A stretch of DNA of 30,673 nt from a virus. The stretch's first letter is position 1; the number at the start of each line of letters is the position of its first letter. The stretch is taken from positions 1 through 30,673 of IMG/VR virus record IMGVR_UViG_3300025087_000744; one strand, 5' to 3'. Below are positions 5,987-28,590 of the stretch, piece by piece. A program made the translations under genes and the position numbers. Under the pieces are notes generated by a model, which ran no database searches, was not told where the DNA came from, and saw only the letters and a program-made list of their open reading frames with translations.

Positions 5987-7246
5987 ATGGGACGACTTGG
6001 ACCATTAGGAACTTGGGGCTTCGAAATGCAATCTGCTACCGCAGGGATGGAGTTTTCTTCTGTTTTCAATTCCCCCTCAATAGATACCACTATTAAACAT
6101 GGCGGAGCTGCCAGCGGGAAGATTAGTGGTTCTATTGCTGCGGGGACAGTTCAAGGGTTCGCACACGTTATGACTATGGCAACCCGTGTCTTTGGACGTG
6201 CTTACGTGTATATAGACTCACTAGATGCCTCAGACGATGGTGTTGTTTTCTTTGAAATCATGGATACAACTGGAGCAACCTCAGCTCTTGCTGTTCAGTT
6301 TATTAACTTAGCAGGCACTTTGCGTATGGAAGCCTACGCTAACGCTTTTGGTGACTCTATAGACGTTTCCTCAGCCGCTCCTGTTTTTGACCAGTGGATG
6401 AGGGTAGAGTTTGAATACAACGCTGCTAATGCTGGAGCAACTGATGTTGTTACTATAAAACTGGCAGTAGCCGACCCAGAAGGAACCGCTGATACGGTTG
6501 GAACACGGTCAGATCTTACTTTAGCAACCACCCCAGGGTTTTTCCAAGTTGGCGTTTTCAACAGTTCGGGAATAGCCATTACGGGCAGTACAGTTTACTT
6601 TGACGACATTTGCTTTAACACCTCTACTGGTTCTGTAAACAATAGTTTCCCAGGCTCAGGTATAGGAGTAATCGCTCTCCCAACGGCGGCTGGGGACAAT
6701 GCTGCTACCGCAGGTTTGTTTAGTTACATCAATGAAATTCCACCCAGCGATACAGCCACCGCTGGCGGTACGGATATAATTGAACTGGACACCACGACTG
6801 CTATTGGCGATTACAATGTTACCGATACCGCTACTTTAGGAATTAGTAGTTCCGATACCATCAATATGGTAGCAGTTGTGGGTCGTATAAGAGAGGAGAT
6901 TGCAGGAACGAGTAACTACACTCTGAGGATAAAATCAGCCTCAGGAGGAACTACGATTGCCAGCTCGAGTGTTGATGCAGGTAATGCTACACCCCGCACC
7001 AATCCAAGCGGCACTACCGCCTTTGCTATTAGTTTGGTTAGTGAAACTGATCCAACCACAGGTGTAGCGTGGACTTCTACAGGAACAAACTCAATCGAGA
7101 GTATGCAAATTGGAGCCGCTACTACAGACGGATTTCCCGACACTTGGTGTCTCTGGCTAGGAGTAATGATTGAATATATAGACGTTGCTGCTCCACCATC
7201 CACAGCAGCAATCGGTTATAGAAACCTTTTAGGAGTGGGTATATAA
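5987..7246 (+). CDS. Lectin-fold (concanavalin/LamG-like) virion protein
   Basis: A 419-residue protein starting directly after the previous TAA. Residues about 10-210 show the alternating strands of a jelly-roll carbohydrate-binding domain, including FGRAYVYIDSL, MRVEFEYNA and a closing VYFDDICFN, the typical last strand of LamG/concanavalin-like domains in phage tail proteins. The second half (about 225-410) is a separate beta-rich domain with GT/DT-rich turns. The likely role is binding sugars on the host surface or decorating the virion. Fold assignment is by pattern only. It is the last gene before a terminator and new promoter. Confidence 0.6.
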   Translation: MGRLGPLGTWGFEMQSATAGMEFSSVFNSPSIDTTIKHGGAASGKISGSIAAGTVQGFAHVMTMATRVFGRAYVYIDSLDASDDGVVFFEIMDTTGATSALAVQFINLAGTLRMEAYANAFGDSIDVSSAAPVFDQWMRVEFEYNAANAGATDVVTIKLAVADPEGTADTVGTRSDLTLATTPGFFQVGVFNSSGIAITGSTVYFDDICFNTSTGSVNNSFPGSGIGVIALPTAAGDNAATAGLFSYINEIPPSDTATAGGTDIIELDTTTAIGDYNVTDTATLGISSSDTINMVAVVGRIREEIAGTSNYTLRIKSASGGTTIASSSVDAGNATPRTNPSGTTAFAISLVSETDPTTGVAWTSTGTNSIESMQIGAATTDGFPDTWCLWLGVMIEYIDVAAPPSTAAIGYRNLLGVGI

Positions 7247-7263: not shown

Positions 7264-7293
7264 TTGACAAACACGCTCTTGTTTGTATATATT
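7264..7293 (+). promoter_or_regulatory. Promoter P1 of the head module
   Basis: TTGACA at 7264-7269 and TATATT at 7288-7293 with 18 bases between (TATATA at 7286 gives 16). Predicted transcript start is about 7300. An inverted repeat ACAAAC/GTTTGT (7267-7272, 7281-7286) lies across the spacer and could be an operator. The bases from the -10 onward (TATATTTAACTTAG) closely match promoters at 17857 and 23702. Confidence 0.7.
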
Positions 7294-7299
7294 TAACTT

Positions 7300-7339
7300 A
7301 GTAGAGAAATAAGCTCTACCAATACTGTGTGATAAGAAG
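7300..7339 (+). promoter_or_regulatory. Leader RNA with 5'-end hairpin (copy 1)
   Basis: The predicted transcript opens with a hairpin GTAGAG (7301-7306) / CTCTAC (7314-7319) around the loop AAATAAG. It then carries GTGATAAGAAGACC, shared with leaders at 17893 and 23737. The 171-base gap 7247-7417 therefore holds promoter, leader and terminator rather than a gene. Confidence 0.65.
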
Positions 7340-7366
7340 ACCAGTCCCGAAAGGGCTGGTTTTTGT
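7340..7366 (+). terminator. Rho-independent terminator or attenuator in P1 leader
   Basis: An 8-bp stem ACCAGTCC (7340-7347) / GGGCTGGT (7353-7360), one G-U pair, loop CGAAA, followed by TTTTTG. Strong intrinsic terminator form. It lies downstream of P1 and upstream of the scaffold gene, so it either ends readthrough from 7246 or acts as an attenuator of P1. Confidence 0.8.
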
Positions 7367-7417: not shown

Positions 7418-8134
7418 TTGGCCGAGAAAGATTTTTTTGAAGATGGAGACCAAGAGGCTCAAGTACCTGAAAAAACTAAAGTTGGTGATAAAGAGTATAC
7501 ACAAGATGAGCTTTCCGCTCTCGTAGGACTAGGAGAAACTGCACGGGACATAGAAACCAAGCAGAACACTAAGTTAGACAAGGTTTTCCCTTCCTTTACT
7601 AAGGTAAGTCAGGAAAACAAAGAACTTAAAGACAAACTCTCTGAGATCGAAAAGGAACAGGAACGGTTTAAGCAAGCAATCACAGGAGAAGCTAGTAAAC
7701 CCGATCCTGAAGCTCTTAGAGCACAGGCTCTTGAACAAGCTAAGTCTTTGGGAATTCCTACGCTTGACGACGTTAGGCAGATCGCTTTTGAAACTCTAAA
7801 AGGTAAAGAAACCTTAGATGAGATTAAAGCGATAAATAAGGAAGCTGAAACGCTTGGACAGCCGAAGATTGATACCAAAGAGTTTCTTGAGTACGCACAA
7901 CAGAACGGGTTGGATAATGTACCAGTTCGTACTATCTACAAACTAAGGTATGAAGCCGAACTAGATGCTTGGAAAACTGAGCAGCTTAATAAAGTTAAGC
8001 AGCCAGATTTCCAGACTCAAACAACTTCAACCGCAGGAGCTAAAGTCCCACCGACTGGTGAAGCACCTACTGGATCTTTTAGTGAACAGATAACTAGGTT
8101 TATACAAAGCAGAGAGGGTAAAGAACAAACTTAG
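7418..8134 (+). CDS. Capsid scaffolding protein
   Basis: A 238-residue, strongly charged, helix-rich protein starting at TTG 7418 after AGAAGGTG (7403-7410). Residues about 40-110 form an Glu/Lys-rich coiled coil (KELKDKLSEIEKEQERFKQA), followed by more helices and a Thr/Pro/Gly-rich linker. The C-terminal helix (SFSEQITRFIQSREGKEQT) is the kind that docks to the inner capsid. Acidic N-terminus, coiled coil and position immediately before the major capsid gene are the standard scaffold signature. It would direct procapsid assembly and leave before or during packaging. No protease domain is seen. Confidence 0.82.
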   Translation: MAEKDFFEDGDQEAQVPEKTKVGDKEYTQDELSALVGLGETARDIETKQNTKLDKVFPSFTKVSQENKELKDKLSEIEKEQERFKQAITGEASKPDPEALRAQALEQAKSLGIPTLDDVRQIAFETLKGKETLDEIKAINKEAETLGQPKIDTKEFLEYAQQNGLDNVPVRTIYKLRYEAELDAWKTEQLNKVKQPDFQTQTTSTAGAKVPPTGEAPTGSFSEQITRFIQSREGKEQT

Positions 8135-11118: not shown

Positions 11119-11148
11119 TTGACAACTAGATTAGTTGGTTGCTAAAAT
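11119..11148 (+). promoter_or_regulatory. Promoter P2 of the cargo operon
   Basis: TTGACA at 11119-11124 and TAAAAT at 11143-11148 with 18 bases between. It begins 2 bases after the stop of the beta-helix gene. Predicted transcript start is about 11155, inside the first of two hairpins. Confidence 0.65.
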
Positions 11149-11180
11149 GGAAACTGATCCGTCCGAGAGGATCGGTTTCC
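11149..11180 (+). promoter_or_regulatory. First leader hairpin of the cargo operon
   Basis: A 12-bp stem, GGAAACTGATCC (11149-11160) with GGATCGGTTTCC (11169-11180), loop GTCCGAGA, one G-U pair. No T-run follows. It lies at the predicted 5' end of the P2 transcript. Confidence 0.65.
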
Positions 11181-11186
11181 GAAATG

Positions 11187-11220
11187 GAGACTTATTCTTC
11201 TCGGAGAATGAGTCTCTTTT
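11187..11220 (+). terminator. Second leader hairpin: terminator or attenuator
   Basis: A 12-bp stem, GAGACTTATTCT (11187-11198) with AGAATGAGTCTC (11205-11216), loop TCTCGG, followed by TTTTCTG. It has the form of an intrinsic terminator but sits 6 bases before the likely methyltransferase start, so it would have to be conditional or leaky for P2 to express the operon. Confidence 0.7.
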
Positions 11221-12651: not shown

Positions 12652-13270
12652 AGAAGGTTTTGACAGGTACACAGAAAATTACGCAGGCGATCGTTTTTAT
12701 AAAGAAGTTTTCGAGCAGACTATTTATGAGCAGATCCTAAACGCTAAAAGTAGAGATGTTATTGTGGATGCAGGTGCGCTTGCAGGAGAGTTTGCTTTCT
12801 GGATGCTGGCACACGGAGCTAAGAAAGTTTATGCGATTGAGCCTTTCCTGCAACACTACGAGGAATTAGTTGAGAATATTAAACTAGTGGGGGCCGAAGA
12901 TCAGGTTATACCTTTTCAAATTGCTTTGGCTGGGGAAAACTCGCAAAGATCAATCAAAGACAATGGTCGGGGTGGTAACGTGCTAATAAACTATGATGAA
13001 ACAAAGCAGCCAATAGAAGGGGTAACCCTAGCAACTTTTATGCAGCAAAATAAAATTAAAAGAATTAACATTCTCAAAATAGACGTGGAAAATGCTGAGT
13101 TAGAGATATTTTCAGCTTCTGACTTTGAGACTGTAGCCGATAAGATTGACTGTATAATTGGAGAGCACTTTGACGTACTTGATGATGTATTTATAAATAA
13201 GTACGGGTTTAAATCATTACGTGGTGAGCGTAATTTAGTTTTTTACAAGGAGAATAAATGGGCAAGTTAG
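12644..13270 (+). CDS. FkbM-like methyltransferase 3, diverged
   Basis: 208 residues from GTG 12644, preceded by GAAAGGAAGC. It aligns with the two upstream copies, but motif I is VDAGALAGEF (41-50) instead of DIGANIG, and the hallmark reads ILKIDVENAELEIF where the others have EGSE. The motif II residue YAIEP and the VADKIDCIIGE stretch remain. It may have a changed substrate or weakened activity. Its end overlaps the groES-like start by 13 bases, tying the methyltransferases to the chaperonin genes in one operon. Confidence 0.75.
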   Translation: MNKEGFDRYTENYAGDRFYKEVFEQTIYEQILNAKSRDVIVDAGALAGEFAFWMLAHGAKKVYAIEPFLQHYEELVENIKLVGAEDQVIPFQIALAGENSQRSIKDNGRGGNVLINYDETKQPIEGVTLATFMQQNKIKRINILKIDVENAELEIFSASDFETVADKIDCIIGEHFDVLDDVFINKYGFKSLRGERNLVFYKENKWAS

Positions 13271-13536
13271 TTCCTTTGGCAGGCTTCGTATTAGCTGAGC
13301 CTCTTGATGATGATCTTCAAGCTAACGGTGGTATCTACATTCCAGAAACTACTAAAGATAAACCAGCTAAGGCAACGGTCTTGGCAGTTGGAGAAGATAC
13401 TACGGATATTGATCTGTCTTGGTGTAAAGTCGGCCAGACAATAATTCACAAACAATGGTCCCCGACTAGGATTAAAGATAAAGGCAAAGAAGTAGTTTTT
13501 GTAGCTGCTAGCGATATTTTAGGATACGAAGAATGA
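13258..13536 (+). CDS. groES: GroES-like co-chaperonin
   Basis: 92 residues, near the usual 95-97, from ATG 13258 with AAGGAG just upstream. It shows the GroES order: PLAGFVLAEPLDDD at the first strands, the mobile-loop signature GGIYIPETTKDKP (about 24-36), then AKATVLAVGED, and VGQTIIHKQWSPTRIKDKGKE matching the later conserved barrel strands. It caps the chaperonin ring through the mobile loop. The next gene is GroEL, overlapping at ATGA, so the pair is co-translated. T4 gp31 is the known precedent for a phage co-chaperonin used in capsid folding. Confidence 0.9.
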   Translation: MGKLVPLAGFVLAEPLDDDLQANGGIYIPETTKDKPAKATVLAVGEDTTDIDLSWCKVGQTIIHKQWSPTRIKDKGKEVVFVAASDILGYEE

Positions 13537-15122
13537 TTATCAAAAAAGATATTTTAACTAAACGAGCCGCACATGAAAAACTTCTTGAGGGTATCAACGC
13601 TGTTGGAGATGCTGTAGCTTCTACTTTAGGCCCACGCTCTCGAACAGTAGCTTTCGATCAATTTATTGGAGTAGATATTGCCCCGAGTATCTTCCGAGAC
13701 GGAGTTAGCGTTGCCCGCTCAATTAACCTACAAGACCCTTTTGCTGATATGGGAGCAAGACTAATTAAGAGTGCGGCTATTAAAACTGTAAATGACGTTG
13801 GTGATGGTACAACTCTGACCACAATCCTTACCCAAGCCATAGTTTCCGAAGCCCTAACGGCAATAGCGGCTGGTTCTAACCCCATGCAAATTAAAGCAGA
13901 AATTGAAGCTGCAGCCACCGAAAATCTAGCACTCCTGAAGAAAACTGCTAAACCTGTTAAAACTAATGAAGAAACTACCCAAGTAGCCACTATTTCAGCT
14001 TCTGATCCCAAGCTTGGGCAGTTAGTAGCAGAAGCTATTGGTAAGGTGGGTAAAGACGGTATCATTACAGTTGAAGAAGGACAGGCCCTAGAAACTACAA
14101 TCGAGTACAAACAAGGCATGGAGATTGATCGAGGTTACTACTCCTCTTATTTCGTTAACGATCAGAAGCGTGCTGAAGCAGTCAGTCAGAAACCATATAT
14201 ATTGATGACTGACAAACTCTTAAACAACGCCCATGAGATCGTTCCCTTCCTGCAGAAGATGGCAGCCAGTCAAATAAAAGACTTAGTTATCTTTGCCGGT
14301 GAAGTTACTGAGGAAGCTCTTGCAACTCTAGTCCTTAACCATTTGAAGCACACCTTTAACCTTATTGCTATTCAGGCCCCTGCCTTTGGTGGAAGAAGAA
14401 CTGACGAACTGGAAGATATTGCTTCTCTAGTGGGTGGTCACCCGATCCTCATGGACGAAGGTCGGGAACTTGACAGCGTGGAAGTTGAGGAACTAGGTCG
14501 GGCCGACAAAGTTACTGCTGACAGAGACAAGACGATTATCCTGAATGGTGGAGGTAGTAAAGAAGGGCTTAAAAAGAGAATTGAGGATCTAAAAGCTCAG
14601 ATTGATATACCTAACTCTAACTACGATAAAGACATTAAAGAACAACGCATGGCTAACTTAGCTGGACTTGTGGCGGTTATTAACGTTGGTGGTGCAACTG
14701 AGGTGGAAGTTAAGGAAAAGAAGGAAAGAGTAATTGATGCAGTTAACGCTACTAAAGCTGCTGTAGAAGAAGGCATCGTGGCTGGTGGTGAAATTCCCCT
14801 ACTAAATCTAGCTTTACGAGCCTCTGTAAGCCCCTCAGAGCTACTTTCTACAGGTGAGAGGATACTTAAGTCAGCTCTGAAAGTACCTTTTAAGCGTTTG
14901 GTTGAAAACTCAGGATTAGACTATGCAGAAGCCCTTCTGAAACTCTCTAATAAGAAATATCCTTATGGGATTGACGTACTTGACGGACAAGTAAAGAATT
15001 TAATTGAAGTTGGAATTATTGATCCAGTCAAGGTGCTTAGGTGTGCGTTAGAAAATTCGGTAAGTGTGTCTGGAATGTGTTTAACGACAGATACGTTAAT
15101 TGTAAACGTGGAAGAAAAATGA
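13533..15122 (+). CDS. groEL: GroEL-like chaperonin
   Basis: 529 residues, against about 545 in bacteria. The nucleotide site is intact: STLGPRSRTV (30-39), RDGVSVAR (55-62), GDGTTLTTIL (90-99, with D91 at the E. coli D87 position), and VIDAVNATKAAVEEG (400-414, with D402 at the D398 position). The apical domain keeps DRGYYSSYF and QAPAFGGRR. The C-terminus ends after NSVSVSGMCLTTDTLIVNVEEK and lacks the Gly-Gly-Met tail of bacterial GroEL. It should assemble an ATP-driven folding ring with the upstream GroES. It is coupled by ATGA overlaps to GroES and the glycosyltransferase. The client is unknown; capsid protein is the obvious guess. Confidence 0.95.
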   Translation: MIIKKDILTKRAAHEKLLEGINAVGDAVASTLGPRSRTVAFDQFIGVDIAPSIFRDGVSVARSINLQDPFADMGARLIKSAAIKTVNDVGDGTTLTTILTQAIVSEALTAIAAGSNPMQIKAEIEAAATENLALLKKTAKPVKTNEETTQVATISASDPKLGQLVAEAIGKVGKDGIITVEEGQALETTIEYKQGMEIDRGYYSSYFVNDQKRAEAVSQKPYILMTDKLLNNAHEIVPFLQKMAASQIKDLVIFAGEVTEEALATLVLNHLKHTFNLIAIQAPAFGGRRTDELEDIASLVGGHPILMDEGRELDSVEVEELGRADKVTADRDKTIILNGGGSKEGLKKRIEDLKAQIDIPNSNYDKDIKEQRMANLAGLVAVINVGGATEVEVKEKKERVIDAVNATKAAVEEGIVAGGEIPLLNLALRASVSPSELLSTGERILKSALKVPFKRLVENSGLDYAEALLKLSNKKYPYGIDVLDGQVKNLIEVGIIDPVKVLRCALENSVSVSGMCLTTDTLIVNVEEK

Positions 15123-16707: not shown

Positions 16708-17894
16708 GAATTATATGGTCGAGTAACTCCTCATTTTCGTACTCAGGATACGGAACTTTCACTAAAAACATTCTTAAAAGAATGATTGAAGATGGTTGGA
16801 TTGTCGGGGAAATTGGTTGGTTTGGTTTACAAGGCCATTCAATCGAGTACAACAACCACAAAATATACCCCGTAATGCGTCATGTCTTTGGCTCTGATGC
16901 CTTAGTTGCACACAGTCTGGACTTTCAAGCCAACGTCATCTTTACTATGCAGGATATCTGGGCACTTGATCCCAACGACTTAAAACAACTTAAGTATTTC
17001 ATTCCCTATTTACCCATTGACAAGGAACCAGCTCCTCAAGGCGTACTTAACAATTTAAACTACGCTTACCGCATTCTTACCTTTTCTAAGTTCGGCCATG
17101 ACGAATTGGAGAAAGCTAATTTCACTTCCCGACTAATCGTTGAGGGAACAGATACTGAGATCTTTAAACCTATGGATAAACAAGAAGCCCGTAAGGCGAT
17201 TGGCATTCCACCAGACATTTTCCTTTTCTCAATTATTGGGGCCAATAAAGAGAACCCACCAAGAAAAGGCCATCAGGAGTCTTTGACTGCTTTTAAGACC
17301 TTTTCCGATAAACACCCTGAGGCTAGGCTTCTGTTCAGTACCCAACAACCTGATCCGGCTGGTTTTCCAGTTCAAGGCTATGCTAAGTATCTGGGTATTT
17401 TAGATAAACTAATCTTTACGAACGAATACAACACTATCTACAAGTTCACTTCTGAGGATATTAACAAGTTCTACAACGCTAGTGATGTTCTTTTACACCC
17501 TTCCCAGACTGAGGGTTTTGGATTGTGTATTGTGGAAGCTCAGTCGGCAGGAGTTCCAGTCATTATCCAAAACGTTAATTCTATGACTGAGTTAATTCGA
17601 GAAGGCAAGACTGGTTGGGGAGCAGCCACTATCTATAAACAGTTCCGTAATGATGGGGGCTTCACTAATATCGCTGATCCTAATTCTGTTTATTCTTGTA
17701 TGGAGAAAGCCTACAAAGCTCTCAAAGAGAACCCTGAACAAGTAAAAAAAGACTGTCGGGATTGGGTTGTTGAGAACTACAACATAGATAAACTCTACGA
17801 AACACATTGGCGGCCTTTGTTAGAGCAGCTTCAAGATGAAATTCTTGGAGCAAAACTTGACAACTCCTCAGTAAGAACACTACAATCTACTTAG
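16680..17894 (+). CDS. GT4-like (GT-B) glycosyltransferase
   Basis: 404 residues from ATG 16680 with GGGAGAACGA upstream. The N-terminus has the GT-B glycine loop SYSGYGTFTKNIL. The C-terminal Rossmann domain carries FLFSIIGANKENPPRKGH and the GT4 signature TEGFGLCIVEAQSAGVPVI, with E278 and E286 in the E-x7-E spacing that binds the donor sugar nucleotide. GKTGW follows, as usual. It closes the cargo operon. The last 13 codons contain promoter P3, so the gene end doubles as a regulatory region. Confidence 0.88.
   Translation: MDTSKRRDLRIIWSSNSSFSYSGYGTFTKNILKRMIEDGWIVGEIGWFGLQGHSIEYNNHKIYPVMRHVFGSDALVAHSLDFQANVIFTMQDIWALDPNDLKQLKYFIPYLPIDKEPAPQGVLNNLNYAYRILTFSKFGHDELEKANFTSRLIVEGTDTEIFKPMDKQEARKAIGIPPDIFLFSIIGANKENPPRKGHQESLTAFKTFSDKHPEARLLFSTQQPDPAGFPVQGYAKYLGILDKLIFTNEYNTIYKFTSEDINKFYNASDVLLHPSQTEGFGLCIVEAQSAGVPVIIQNVNSMTELIREGKTGWGAATIYKQFRNDGGFTNIADPNSVYSCMEKAYKALKENPEQVKKDCRDWVVENYNIDKLYETHWRPLLEQLQDEILGAKLDNSSVRTLQST
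17857..17886 (+). promoter_or_regulatory. Promoter P3 of the tail module
   Basis: TTGACA at 17857-17862 and TACAAT at 17881-17886 with 18 bases between, lying inside the 3' end of the glycosyltransferase gene. TACAATCTACTTAG matches the -10 region text of P1. Predicted transcript start is about 17893. Confidence 0.7.
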
Positions 17895-17960
17895 ATACCC
17901 GATAAATAAGGCGGGCATTCGAGTGAATAAGAAGACCGAAAGGTTTTCTTTTCGTTTTTA
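17893..17960 (+). promoter_or_regulatory. Leader RNA with 5' hairpin and terminator-like hairpin (copy 2)
   Basis: A short stem CCCG/CGGG (17898-17901, 17912-17915) encloses a loop containing AAATAAG, as in the P1 leader. GTGAATAAGAAGACC follows, and AAGAAGACC (17929-17937) pairs with GGTTTTCTT (17942-17950) across a GAAA tetraloop, 9 bp with one G-U, followed by TTCGTTTTT. It lies upstream of a separate strong ribosome site AAAGGAGG. Confidence 0.7.
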
Positions 17961-17981: not shown

Positions 17982-18278
17982 ATGGCAACTCAGCCACCGC
18001 AAGGAGATAGGTTTGTAGTAGTAGCTGCAGCAGGAACTACTGTTGCATCAGACATTGGGGCAACTCTTAAGAAAGTAATTTTATCAGGTACTTATGTTGG
18101 TTCGGTAGAATGGTACAACTCTGCAACTGCCGCTGGAACTGCAGCTACCAATAAAATTTTTGACATTGGGCTACCATTAACTAATCTAAATCGAAGCATT
18201 GACATTAACGCCTATGGTAGAAACGGTTTAGTGGTAGTAGCTACTGGAACACCCACGCTTACTTATACCCTAGAATAA
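17982..18278 (+). CDS. Small structural-type protein, first of tail module
   Basis: 98 residues from ATG 17982 with a strong AAAGGAGG site (17970-17977). Beta-rich and Ala/Gly/Thr-rich with no charged clusters (GTTVASDIGATLKKVILSGT), similar in style to small phage head or tail surface proteins. No family recognised. As first gene after P3 with the best ribosome site in the region it should be highly expressed, which suits a multi-copy virion protein. Confidence 0.65.
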   Translation: MATQPPQGDRFVVVAAAGTTVASDIGATLKKVILSGTYVGSVEWYNSATAAGTAATNKIFDIGLPLTNLNRSIDINAYGRNGLVVVATGTPTLTYTLE

Positions 18279-23696: not shown

Positions 23697-23707
23697 GTAA
23701 CTTGACT
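23691..23707. repeat. Inverted repeat in the divergent promoter region
   Basis: AGTCAAG-TAA-CTTGACT, 7-bp arms. The right arm is the -35 of promoter P4 and the left arm faces the minus-strand gene. It could be an operator controlling both directions. It is followed on the plus strand by GGCTTTTT, so a weak terminator for the tail module is the alternative. Confidence 0.55.
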
Positions 23708-23730
23708 TGGCTTTTTAAATCGAATACTAT
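23702..23730 (+). promoter_or_regulatory. Promoter P4 of the internal-virion and lysis module
   Basis: TTGACT at 23702-23707 and TACTAT at 23725-23730 with 17 bases between. The -10 region TACTATTTAACTAG matches P1 and P3. Predicted transcript start is about 23737. Confidence 0.7.
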
Positions 23731-23736
23731 TTAACT

Positions 23737-23795
23737 AGCAATAATCAAGATTGCCACAGTCTGGTGAACAAGAAGACCGACAGAAAGGTCTTTTA
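23737..23795 (+). promoter_or_regulatory. Leader RNA with 5' hairpin and terminator-like hairpin (copy 3)
   Basis: The 5' stem GCAAT/ATTGC (23738-23742, 23750-23754) encloses the 7-base loop AATCAAG. GTGAACAAGAAGACC follows, and AGAAGACC (23771-23778) pairs with GGTCTTTT (23787-23794). The ribosome site AAAGG (23784-23788) is partly in the 3' arm, so this hairpin could also limit translation of the GTG start at 23796. Confidence 0.65.
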
Positions 23796-24581
23796 GTGGC
23801 AATACAACCCGACTACAGTTCAATACTTCAACAATCTACTCAGCAAGCAGCTGCTGCTATTCAGCCGGCTCTACAACAACTAGAGTCCACTAAACCCACT
23901 CTTCAACAACAGTATCAGTCTGCTTTAGGGCAGATAAAAGAACAGCAACAAGCTGAGACTTCTAGGACACAGACGGCGACTTCCAGAGAGTTTGGAAAAA
24001 GAGGCATTCCCCTATCCTCTGGTGTTTTCGATACTACTTTAAACGAACAACTTGCCCCGATTGGTCGTTATTACACAGGTCAGGGACAACAAGCAGACGT
24101 TAACTACCAGAACTCACTTAACAGTCTCTTACAACAGATAGCCGGTTTACAGAGTGGGGCTAACCAGAACGCTATTAGTGCTGCTCAAGGGTTGTACGGC
24201 CAGCAACTAGGTAACTATAATGCTGAGTTAGATCGAGCAGCTCAGGAAAGGCAATCAGCTTTAACTAGGAGTTCGTCTGCTAGTTTACAGAGTCAGTTTC
24301 TTGCTGCTCAAGCTGCCGCTGCTAGAGAAGCTGAGACACGGTTAACTGCTAAGGAACACCAAAGTCAACTATCAGGAGCACTTAATTACTTAACAGGAGC
24401 TGCTTTCAATAACCCTAATACCACAGTTGACTCTAACGAACTAGATATGGCATATCAGTACTTGATAAATCAGGGCTTAGATAAGAATAGTGCAATATCT
24501 ACTATTAAAAGTGCATTTAATAATCAAGGCTTAGAGCCTTATCGGTTAAGCAGTGCTGCACAGAAATTTTATGGACTATAA
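23796..24581 (+). CDS. Internal virion-like protein, Gln/Ala-rich coiled coil
   Basis: 261 residues from GTG 23796, with AAAGG 7 bases upstream. The frame is open from TTG 23751, but that part is leader RNA. The protein is dominated by Gln, Ala and Ser in long helices (STQQAAAAIQPALQQLE, ADVNYQNSLNSLLQQIAGLQ), with a helical C-terminal domain (NELDMAYQYLINQGLDKNSA). This composition and position resemble the small ejection proteins of podoviruses, which leave the virion with the DNA. No enzymatic motif seen. TAATG-coupled to the next gene. Confidence 0.6.
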   Translation: MAIQPDYSSILQQSTQQAAAAIQPALQQLESTKPTLQQQYQSALGQIKEQQQAETSRTQTATSREFGKRGIPLSSGVFDTTLNEQLAPIGRYYTGQGQQADVNYQNSLNSLLQQIAGLQSGANQNAISAAQGLYGQQLGNYNAELDRAAQERQSALTRSSSASLQSQFLAAQAAAAREAETRLTAKEHQSQLSGALNYLTGAAFNNPNTTVDSNELDMAYQYLINQGLDKNSAISTIKSAFNNQGLEPYRLSSAAQKFYGL

Positions 24582-27880: not shown

Positions 27881-27922
27881 GAGAAAGTCCCTAACATAAT
27901 ACTATGAAAGGGACTTTTCTCA
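27881..27922 (+). terminator. Late-operon terminator
   Basis: AGAAAGTCCC (27882-27891) pairs with GGGACTTTTCT (27910-27920) across an 18-base loop, with one unpaired T. The T-rich 3' arm (TTTTCT) suits termination of the lysis module. The large loop makes it moderate rather than strong. Confidence 0.6.
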
Positions 27923-28027
27923 CTTATTCTAAAGAATTCTTTTCAAGGCTAAGGGGCTTATGCAAGGTACTTCTAAGAGCCTTGTTAGTAGTGGTTCATG
28001 AGTCATGTAACAGCTAGATGTGGGGGA

Positions 28028-28056
28028 TTGACTAAAAAACCACTCCTTGATAGAAT
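28028..28056 (+). promoter_or_regulatory. Possible plus-strand promoter in the control region
   Basis: TTGACT at 28028-28033 and TAGAAT at 28051-28056 with 17 bases between. It overlaps the hairpin that would end the minus-strand RNA. The next plus gene is 300 bases away, so the promoter may be incidental. Confidence 0.4.
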
Positions 28057-28141
28057 GGTCTTTTAGAAAGTTTTTTGCAAAAACTAACAGTATTTAATTT
28101 TTAGAACTCAAAGAACCTTAACAATTTAAGGATGCTTTTAT
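28034..28141 (-). ncRNA. Candidate small RNA, about 108 nt
   Basis: A minus-strand promoter (28148-28176) would start RNA near 28141. The transcript begins with a CCTTAA/TTAAGG hairpin (plus 28117-28132) and ends at ACCATTC/GGAGTGGT (plus 28039-28059) followed by TTTTTT on the minus strand, a good intrinsic terminator. It has no ATG and no coding frame. Prediction only. Confidence 0.4.
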
Positions 28142-28147
28142 AATGAA

Positions 28148-28176
28148 ATATTAGCATAAATGTTTAAGCTTGTCAA
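28148..28176 (-). promoter_or_regulatory. Minus-strand promoter of the candidate small RNA
   Basis: On the minus strand TTGACA (plus 28171-28176) and TAATAT (plus 28148-28153) are separated by 17 bases, a near-consensus housekeeping promoter pointing away from the early genes. Confidence 0.55.
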
Positions 28177-28337
28177 CCCCCTTTCCGCCCCTCTCACACT
28201 CTCCCCACTAAACCCCACCCTTCGGGTTTACCTCGTTACACTCGGTCGTAGGTTAAACTTTTTTTCTTAACTTGCCCCCTTTTTCTTAGAAGTACCAAGA
28301 AATCTTTTTCCCCCAAACGGCGCAAATGGAGCAAAGC

Positions 28338-28357
28338 TTGACAAAAGGTTGTATAAT
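28338..28357 (+). promoter_or_regulatory. Promoter-like site of the HTH gene
   Basis: TATAAT at 28352-28357 ends 8 bases before the ATG, so a transcript from it would be leaderless or nearly so. TTGACA at 28338-28343 is only 8 bases upstream, the same odd spacing as before the minus-strand gene at 23670. Confidence 0.45.
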
Positions 28358-28365
28358 ACCCATAT

Positions 28366-28524
28366 ATGAGACAAGTAGACAAAGATACCGCAAAAGATAT
28401 ATTATCCTTGTTACAACTAAAAATTCCCAAAACGCAGATTGCACTACAGAAAAAGCTCAACCGGCGAACTATCTGGAAAATATCCAAACACCCTGAAAAA
28501 TACCTACTTGACAAGGTCTCGTAA
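28366..28524 (+). CDS. Tiny helix-turn-helix protein
   Basis: 52 residues from ATG 28366 to TAA 28522-28524. DILSLLQLKIPKTQIALQKK followed by LNRRTIWKISKHPEKYL is a classic homeodomain-like/resolvase-like HTH: helix, short turn with conserved hydrophobics, then an Arg-rich recognition helix. It lacks any dimer or effector domain. It is probably a phage transcription regulator of the early region. The next promoter (28508) lies in its last codons, so it may autoregulate or control the following genes. There is no Shine-Dalgarno site at normal spacing; AAAGG lies about 18 bases upstream. Confidence 0.65.
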   Translation: MRQVDKDTAKDILSLLQLKIPKTQIALQKKLNRRTIWKISKHPEKYLLDKVS

Positions 28525-28534
28525 GTGTGATAAT
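28508..28534 (+). promoter_or_regulatory. Promoter of the early operon
   Basis: TTGACA at 28508-28513 and GATAAT at 28529-28534 with 15 bases between and an extended TGT before the -10 (TAATGT at 28531 gives 17). Predicted start is about 28541. The transcript then opens with a hairpin, TAACAAG (28545-28551) pairing CTTGTTA (28568-28574), before the strong site AAAGGAGG. Confidence 0.6.
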
Positions 28535-28590
28535 GTATCTAGCGTAACAAGCTTTTTAGAAAGGAGACTTGTTAACGAAAGGAGGCGAAT

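Follow-up and report, generated by a model that had tools for sequence, protein, structure and literature searches.

A two-hairpin leader before the late operons of a group of uncultured phages, and a zinc-ribbon protein as its candidate factor

Two hairpins that precede several eut terminators are recognised by EutV (PMC3369931), and the target RNAs of ANTAR proteins in general (EutV, NasR, AmiR; PMC3369931) share several properties with the phage leaders reported here: two small hairpins in the 5' leader, conserved loops, several copies per regulon and a shared sequence that overlaps the terminator in its 5' part, with a second hairpin (here P2) that excludes the intrinsic terminator. In contrast to the ANTAR targets, which have hexaloops with A1 and G4, the loops of the phage leaders comprise 7-10 nt in the first hairpin (P1) and 7-13 nt in P2; moreover each copy has its own promoter, P1 is optional and the genes that follow are phage late genes. 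The ANTAR domain (PF03861) was found in 0 of 27 records, but the control genomes were equally negative, and the protein could come from the host. The RAT elements of BglG, LicT and SacY are similar in that an antiterminator hairpin, stabilised by a protein, partly overlaps the terminator, whereas the phage leaders are without the RAT internal-loop structure and have a second hairpin. The CAT_RBD domain (PF03123) gave 0 hits in 27 phage records, the positive control being detected in 4 genomes.

Other comparisons concern antitermination in long operons and in phages. In the dfn and mln leaders a small hairpin is needed for LoaP to pass a terminator before a long operon (PMC12691694), but the hairpin there is of the UNCG type, the protein is a NusG paralogue and the leader is ~417 nt long, compared with at most ~70 nt here; the NusG family (PF02357) was found in 0 of 23 records, with the positive control detected in 10 genomes. 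The put RNA of HK022 (PMC9378689) is likewise a phage leader RNA of ~70 nt with two stem-loops right after the promoter, and differs from the present leaders in their short stems, phage-specific loop, mutually exclusive terminator and linked protein family; no sequence likeness was noted. Lambda Q acts at pR', again a constitutive late promoter with a promoter-proximal terminator awaiting a phage antiterminator, whereas here three to five operons per genome are concerned and the signals lie in RNA instead of DNA; the Q families PF03589 and PF06530 gave no match over the cut-off in 21 records. Regarding lambda N and nut, no boxA-like sequence was seen by eye, and the P1 loops of 7-10 nt contrast with the boxB pentaloop.

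Leader copies in the window and in related phages

The window, meaning the whole stretch of DNA analysed (30,673 nt), comes from IMG/VR and represents 30.7 kb of a tailed phage in which a portal and a major head protein are present. The first-pass annotation had described a promoter with a two-hairpin leader at 7264, 17857 and 23702, and all three copies are present as described. A fourth copy of the window's phage lies before terS on another contig (L003:106-214) and is also found in L004 and L018. L003 is otherwise near-identical to the window; the 419-aa tail-region gene of the window (5987-7246) is split on L003 (8701-9960) into ORFs of 89 and 328 aa, as a frame difference or variant. The window at 13258-15122 and L018 carry GroES/GroEL, several FkbM methyltransferases and glycosyltransferases, and L018 in addition heptose-type sugar genes, transketolase halves and a transaldolase; the closest match found in GTDB for the phage GroEL, from a Clostridia MAG, has an identity of only 43%. 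The elements of the three window copies are as follows.

7264-7293, plus strand: copy 1 promoter, TTGACA-18 nt-TATATT (11/12 matches); predicted +1 at A7300
7301-7319, plus strand: copy 1 P1 hairpin, GTAGAG-AAATAAG-CTCTAC (folding; stem covariation in relatives)
7324-7345, plus strand: copy 1 P2, putative antiterminator, ACTG.GT[GATAAGAAG]AC-CAGT (MFE of 46-58 nt prefixes; swap tests)
7336-7364, plus strand: copy 1 terminator hairpin and U-run, overlapping the 3' half of P2, upstream of the scaffold gene (folding)
7418-8134, plus strand: scaffold-like gene that follows copy 1 (a family found in 19 genomes)
17857-17886, plus strand: copy 2 promoter, TTGACA-18 nt-TACAAT (11/12 matches); predicted +1 at A17893
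17898-17915, plus strand: copy 2 P1 hairpin, CCCG-ATAAATAAGG-CGGG (folding; covariance model E=1e-4)
17918-17940, plus strand: copy 2 P2, putative antiterminator, TTCG.GT[GAATAAGAAG]AC-CGAA (MFE of 48-52 nt prefixes)
17929-17950, plus strand: copy 2 terminator, AAGAAGACC-GAAA-GGTTTTCTT, then a T-rich tail, upstream of the 98-aa gene (folding)
17982-18278, plus strand: 98-aa gene that follows copy 2, function not assigned (a family found in 13 genomes)
23702-23730, plus strand: copy 3 promoter, TTGACT-17 nt-TACTAT (9/12 matches); predicted +1 at A23737
23738-23754, plus strand: copy 3 P1 hairpin, GCAAT-AATCAAG-ATTGC (covariance model E=0.003; 46-52 nt prefixes)
23759-23781, plus strand: copy 3 P2, putative antiterminator, GTC.GGT[GAACAAGAAG]ACC-GAC (MFE of 46-52 nt prefixes)
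23771-23794, plus strand: copy 3 terminator hairpin, TTTT at its end (folding)
23796-24581, plus strand: internal virion protein-like gene that follows copy 3 (a family found in 18 genomes; predicted start)

Remeasured distances from the -35 box to AAGAAGACC were the same as given before (70, 72 and 68 in copies 1, 2 and 3), and AAGAAGACC, previously taken for an arm of a terminator-like hairpin, is indeed the 5' arm of a hairpin that is followed by a U-run. With the 7th base after the -10 box taken as +1, hairpin 1 starts at +2 in copies 1, 3 and 4 and at about +6 in copy 2, in agreement with the earlier range of +2 to +6, while the onset of GTGA, formerly placed at +34 to +37, had to be corrected to about +28 to +31. 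The z-scores of the leader MFE are -4.7, -4.0, -2.5 and -5.1 for copies 1 to 4; hairpin 1 of copy 3 is absent from the MFE of the complete leader and present in shorter prefixes. By itself AAGAAGACC is not significant in the window (10 matches with at most 1 mismatch, 10.4 expected), and the significance rests on the ordered set of promoter, hairpin, linker, terminator and gene, not on this 9-mer. The internal virion protein gene probably starts with the GTG at 23796, and the SD-like GAAAGG belonging to this start lies inside the copy 3 terminator, so that P2 would free elongation and translation alike.

When 2.9 million viral contigs were searched for the exact motif GTGA-N-AAGAAGACC-N-GAAAG, only unrelated and mostly coding matches were obtained beyond this phage. 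Since the structure rather than the exact motif is conserved, relatives were sought through the portal protein (7 loci first, 80 with the portal alignment). All sequences compared are contigs from metagenomes, many of them incomplete. The same late modules are preceded by promoter, leader and terminator in more than 20 related IMG/VR phages, and the recurrence in relatives expected from the first-pass annotation was thereby found. A scan of 82 loci for the pattern TTGAC-N15-19-TA...T, followed by an intrinsic terminator within 14-120 nt, gave 67 matches on the coding strand versus 2 on the reverse strand. As a MAFFT alignment limited to the window copies misaligned the stems, a covariance model (R1) was built from relatives, with a seed of 16 relatives from which the window's phage was left out. 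R1 yielded 57 matches in 87 loci, every one in the coding orientation of its phage, and one weak match (17.8 bits) in 414 kb of unrelated phage DNA; run on the window, L003 and L018 alone, it found the four copies at E = 1e-4, 0.003, 0.007 and 0.04. At the gathering score no Rfam 15 family matched the window or 105 kb of sequence from relatives. A likeness of copy 1 to STnc370 (28.9 vs 54 bits) was sub-threshold, did not recur at copy 2 and was regarded as chance. No portal relatives of the phage were found in GTDB genomes or in INPHARED, and a search of open-licence papers found no such phage system.

The genes behind the leaders are those for terminase (terS/terL), scaffold, the 98-aa protein and the virion protein, at times also portal or tail genes. 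Among well-formed intergenic promoters a leader was present in 40 of 48 cases before late families versus 9 of 51 before other genes, and at least 3 of the remaining 8 late promoters have leaders whose terminator scored too low. Early promoters are without the leader. At several of them (G008:20417, G018:27056, G006:33636) an ATG follows about 7 nt after the -10 box, suggesting that early mRNAs are of a leaderless type, unlike the structured late leaders. In the window ~700 nt that separate the lysis-end genes from the early genes (27900-28590) are mostly non-coding and contain promoters at 28176 on the minus strand and at 28341 and 28508 on the plus strand as well as a hairpin at about 28213-28265; this is probably an early control region.

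A different arrangement is seen at 11119-11190 of the window, where a promoter (TTGACA-18-TAAAAT) precedes two long hairpins of 12 and 11 bp with the complementary loops TCCGAGA and TCTCGG, possibly a kissing-loop leader whose T-rich tail lies where an FkbM methyltransferase gene begins. Similar kissing-loop leaders occur at G017:34498, G011:2410 and L105:12062, and H-type pseudoknots abut the ATG of methyltransferase genes at L092:12835, L097:9239, L099:11427 and G009:14666. These kissing-loop and pseudoknot leaders constitute a second leader class of the same phages.

Leader hairpins and their possible role in attenuation

Of 62 non-redundant leaders, 39 have a P1 that starts 5-8 nt after the -10 box (about +1/+2), compared with 6.8 ± 2.4 (maximum 13) at this fixed place in 200 dinucleotide shuffles. 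Its four core pairs are paired in 94-100% of the sequences (15-16 of 16), each pair has both of its bases changed in 6-7 of them, and the covariation score of the whole structure is 0.488, as against 0.202 ± 0.024 when shuffled and ≤0.11 when slid. Covariation, the absence of which would have spoken against the first-pass annotation, is thus strong in stem 1 of the relatives. In G005 the three P1 loops ACAAAATGG, ACGAAATGG and ATAATATGG each sit on a different stem, and in phages with short leaders P1 is missing and P2 is kept. Of the two-hairpin leader as first described both hairpins stand, but a third, mutually exclusive helix, P2, had been missed, and hairpin 1 proved dispensable in a subset of phages. 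A kissing interaction between P1 loop and linker was not seen by eye in the window copies. A leader peptide was also discarded: GTG-start frames differ between copies (1-nt difference from GTGA to AAGAAG), and many linkers contain no start codon and no SD.

In P2 a linker segment X, which the conserved GA..TAGAAG loop follows directly, pairs with its complement X' within the 5' arm of the terminator; as P2 uses this arm, P2 and the terminator are mutually exclusive. It is found in all four copies of the window's phage (in copy 4 as ACGT.GT[GATAAGAAG]AC.ACGT), each time interrupted by a single bulge or mismatch at a similar position. The pairings in G005 are TTCGGT..ACCGAG, GTGGT..ACCAC and TCGTGT..GCACGA, and G023, in which P1 is absent, has four P2 helices, GTGTT[ATTTAGA]AACAC, AGTGT[ATTTAGA]GCACT, GTGTT[ATTTAGA]AGCAC and AACGT[ATTTAGA]ACGTT. 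As bulges and unequal loop lengths blurred the covariation map of P2 over fixed columns, swap tests were used instead. The leader's own terminator arm was better than swapped arms both in helix score (z 5.5, 0 of 10,000 permutations) and in folding energy (z -4.9, 0 of 20,000; +1.7 for an upstream control region). In a cruder count a helix of at least 4 bp was present in the MFE of 55 of 78 leaders versus 41.8 ± 3.8 after swapping, a high baseline that makes P2 less certain than P1 and the terminator. When growing transcripts were folded, all four copies formed P1 and P2 at about 46-60 nt and then switched to the terminator. From the sequence data P1 and the terminator appear very well supported and P2 well, while the link to a protein is suggestive.

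Promoter, P1 and terminator, their recurrence and covariation, the late-only position, the mutual exclusion by pairing and the co-occurrence with a zinc-ribbon gene described below can be read from the DNA itself, and they make probable a protein-dependent attenuation of the late regulon, with the zinc-ribbon protein as the likely factor, which would work in the manner of ANTAR or RAT systems with an unrelated RNA and protein. Each late operon would be transcribed from a constitutive sigma-70-type promoter, and RNA polymerase would reach an intrinsic terminator after 35-70 nt. The leader would fold in order, first into P1, the 5'-terminal hairpin with its phage-specific A-rich loop that is absent in some phages, and next into P2, a weak antiterminator of which the conserved loop (GA..TAGAAG) and 3' arm double as the 5' arm of the terminator. 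Without assistance the stronger terminator would displace P2, and transcription would halt ahead of the gene. A phage protein produced earlier than the late stage, likely the zinc-ribbon protein encoded upstream of the terminase module, would bind the P1 and P2 loops and hold P2, RNA polymerase would pass, and all late modules would be switched on together. Attenuation relieved by a phage factor was one of the roles first suggested, and it has gained good support from the U-run terminator found only before late genes, the recurrence and the covariation; put-like antitermination and 5'-end protection, proposed alongside it, fared less well.

The position of P1 at +2, its phage-specific loop and its variable stem, as expected for a hairpin recognised by a protein, would also agree with processive antitermination, in which P1, with or without the linker, serves as a loading site similar to boxB or the LoaP hairpin, the protein-modified RNA polymerase ignores this and later terminators, and P2 is incidental; LoaP does depend on a small hairpin that the leader forms ahead of a terminator (PMC12691694). 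However, several phages without P1 keep terminator and P2, the complementarity of X and X' between linker and terminator arm exceeds that of swaps, and none of the 23 records encodes a NusG family protein, which makes this reading unlikely. A GC hairpin followed by 5-8 U with an A-tract complement, as present here, is a canonical terminator, and a mere protection of the mRNA by 5' hairpins, with U-runs aiding an SD-poor translation and no attenuation, would explain neither why P2 and the terminator exclude each other nor why the position is strictly a late one; although hairpin 1 starts one base after the predicted 5' end and U-runs often abut the start codon, we consider it improbable.

Comparing leaders within and between phages, identity is 0.69 and 0.46 for the loop and 0.60 and 0.47 for the linker, but 0.46 and 0.44 for the promoter spacer and 0.43 and 0.41 for the upstream 20 nt. 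A conserved DNA element at the promoter was thus not found, spacer and upstream DNA being no more alike within than between phages. Because loop and linker are alike within a phage and the promoter DNA is not, selection acts in the transcribed part, and recognition probably takes place at the RNA level. The selection on RNA that the first-pass annotation had deduced from three copies is well supported by recurrence, stem covariation and this conservation of loop and linker without conservation of promoter spacer and upstream DNA. These data bear directly on a DNA-bound factor of the Q or AlpA type loading at a promoter-proximal pause: a constitutive promoter with an early terminator before late genes follows the logic of lambda pR', and loop 1 sequences such as GATAAT are -10-like and could cause a sigma-dependent pause, but DNA upstream of +1 is not conserved within a phage, stem 1 covaries as RNA, and there was no PF03589 match and a single sub-threshold PF06530 match, in a leaderless phage. 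Such a mechanism seems very improbable to us.

A candidate protein factor

HMMs of 35 protein families, each present in at least 6 genomes, were compared with all six frames of the records. Family A8 comprises small proteins of about 60-120 aa with two CxxC pairs (CPxC..CGxC), and its member in the window's phage is encoded as follows.

L018:6395-6661, minus strand: zinc-ribbon gene of the window's phage, among sugar genes, upstream of terS and the terminase module

A8 is the sole family of the 35 that is present in 20 of 20 leader-bearing records covering its region and in 0 of 5 leaderless records. The gene lies 2.8-13 kb upstream of the portal gene, with one phage at only 2.8 kb; leader-bearing records without A8, whose contigs begin 0.3-4.6 kb upstream of the portal gene, were set aside. 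Only three leaderless records (G020, G021, G022) cover the A8 region well (Fisher about 6e-4, before allowing for 35 families). The leaderless phages are polyphyletic in the portal tree, where G020 is sister to G023/G026 and G021+G022 are sister to G005, all sisters being leader-bearing and having the gene; leaderless phages placed in this way beside leader-bearing sisters imply at least 2 independent joint losses of leader and gene.

The protein also varies with the leader. P1 is found in 1 of 22 leaders of phages with an insertion of 5-14 residues in A8 versus 27 of 33 leaders of phages without it (at least 3 clades; Mann-Whitney 3e-4 per genome, and Fisher 7e-9 when the leaders, which are not independent of one another, are counted). 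G031 is doubtful, as its domain was cut in the insertion comparison, a short insertion appears in the alignment and its P1 is atypical, and the L088/L090 phages have neither the A8 insertion nor P1. No Pfam or PHROG match above the cut-off was obtained for the A8 protein. Its AlphaFold model has a pLDDT of 76, with residues 1-60 mostly >83, and a structure search with this model gave no solved fold at E<0.001.

RNA binding and antitermination by the zinc-ribbon protein are what we infer from these sequence patterns. Tentatively, and with somewhat less confidence than for attenuation as such, we propose that this protein, unrelated to N, Q, LoaP, ANTAR and BglG, could bind RNA sequence-specifically and act as the antiterminator that turns on all late operons via the leader of P1, P2 and terminator, RNA and protein co-evolving by loss of P1 and insertion in the protein. 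The co-occurrence of the protein family with the leader and of its subtype with P1, together with the phage-specific loop and the lack of put-type long stems, leave as the least probable reading a put-like RNA (~70 nt, with hairpins directly after the promoter and the size of putL; PMC9378689) that acts on RNA polymerase alone, letting own-promoter transcripts pass always and stopping those from upstream operons, the more so as transcripts from upstream operons would carry the same RNA and nothing would be distinguished.

If protein-dependent attenuation holds true, the late-gene switch of a large group of uncultured phages would consist of a similar attenuator at each late operon and would operate without a phage sigma factor, a phage polymerase or a single Q-type promoter. 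The analysis yields an RNA family new to Rfam, a structure-based test for it and a candidate cognate protein without a fold match. As many natural RNA/protein pairs are available in P1-plus and P1-minus subtypes, the specificity of an antiterminator for its RNA and the co-evolution of the two would be directly testable.
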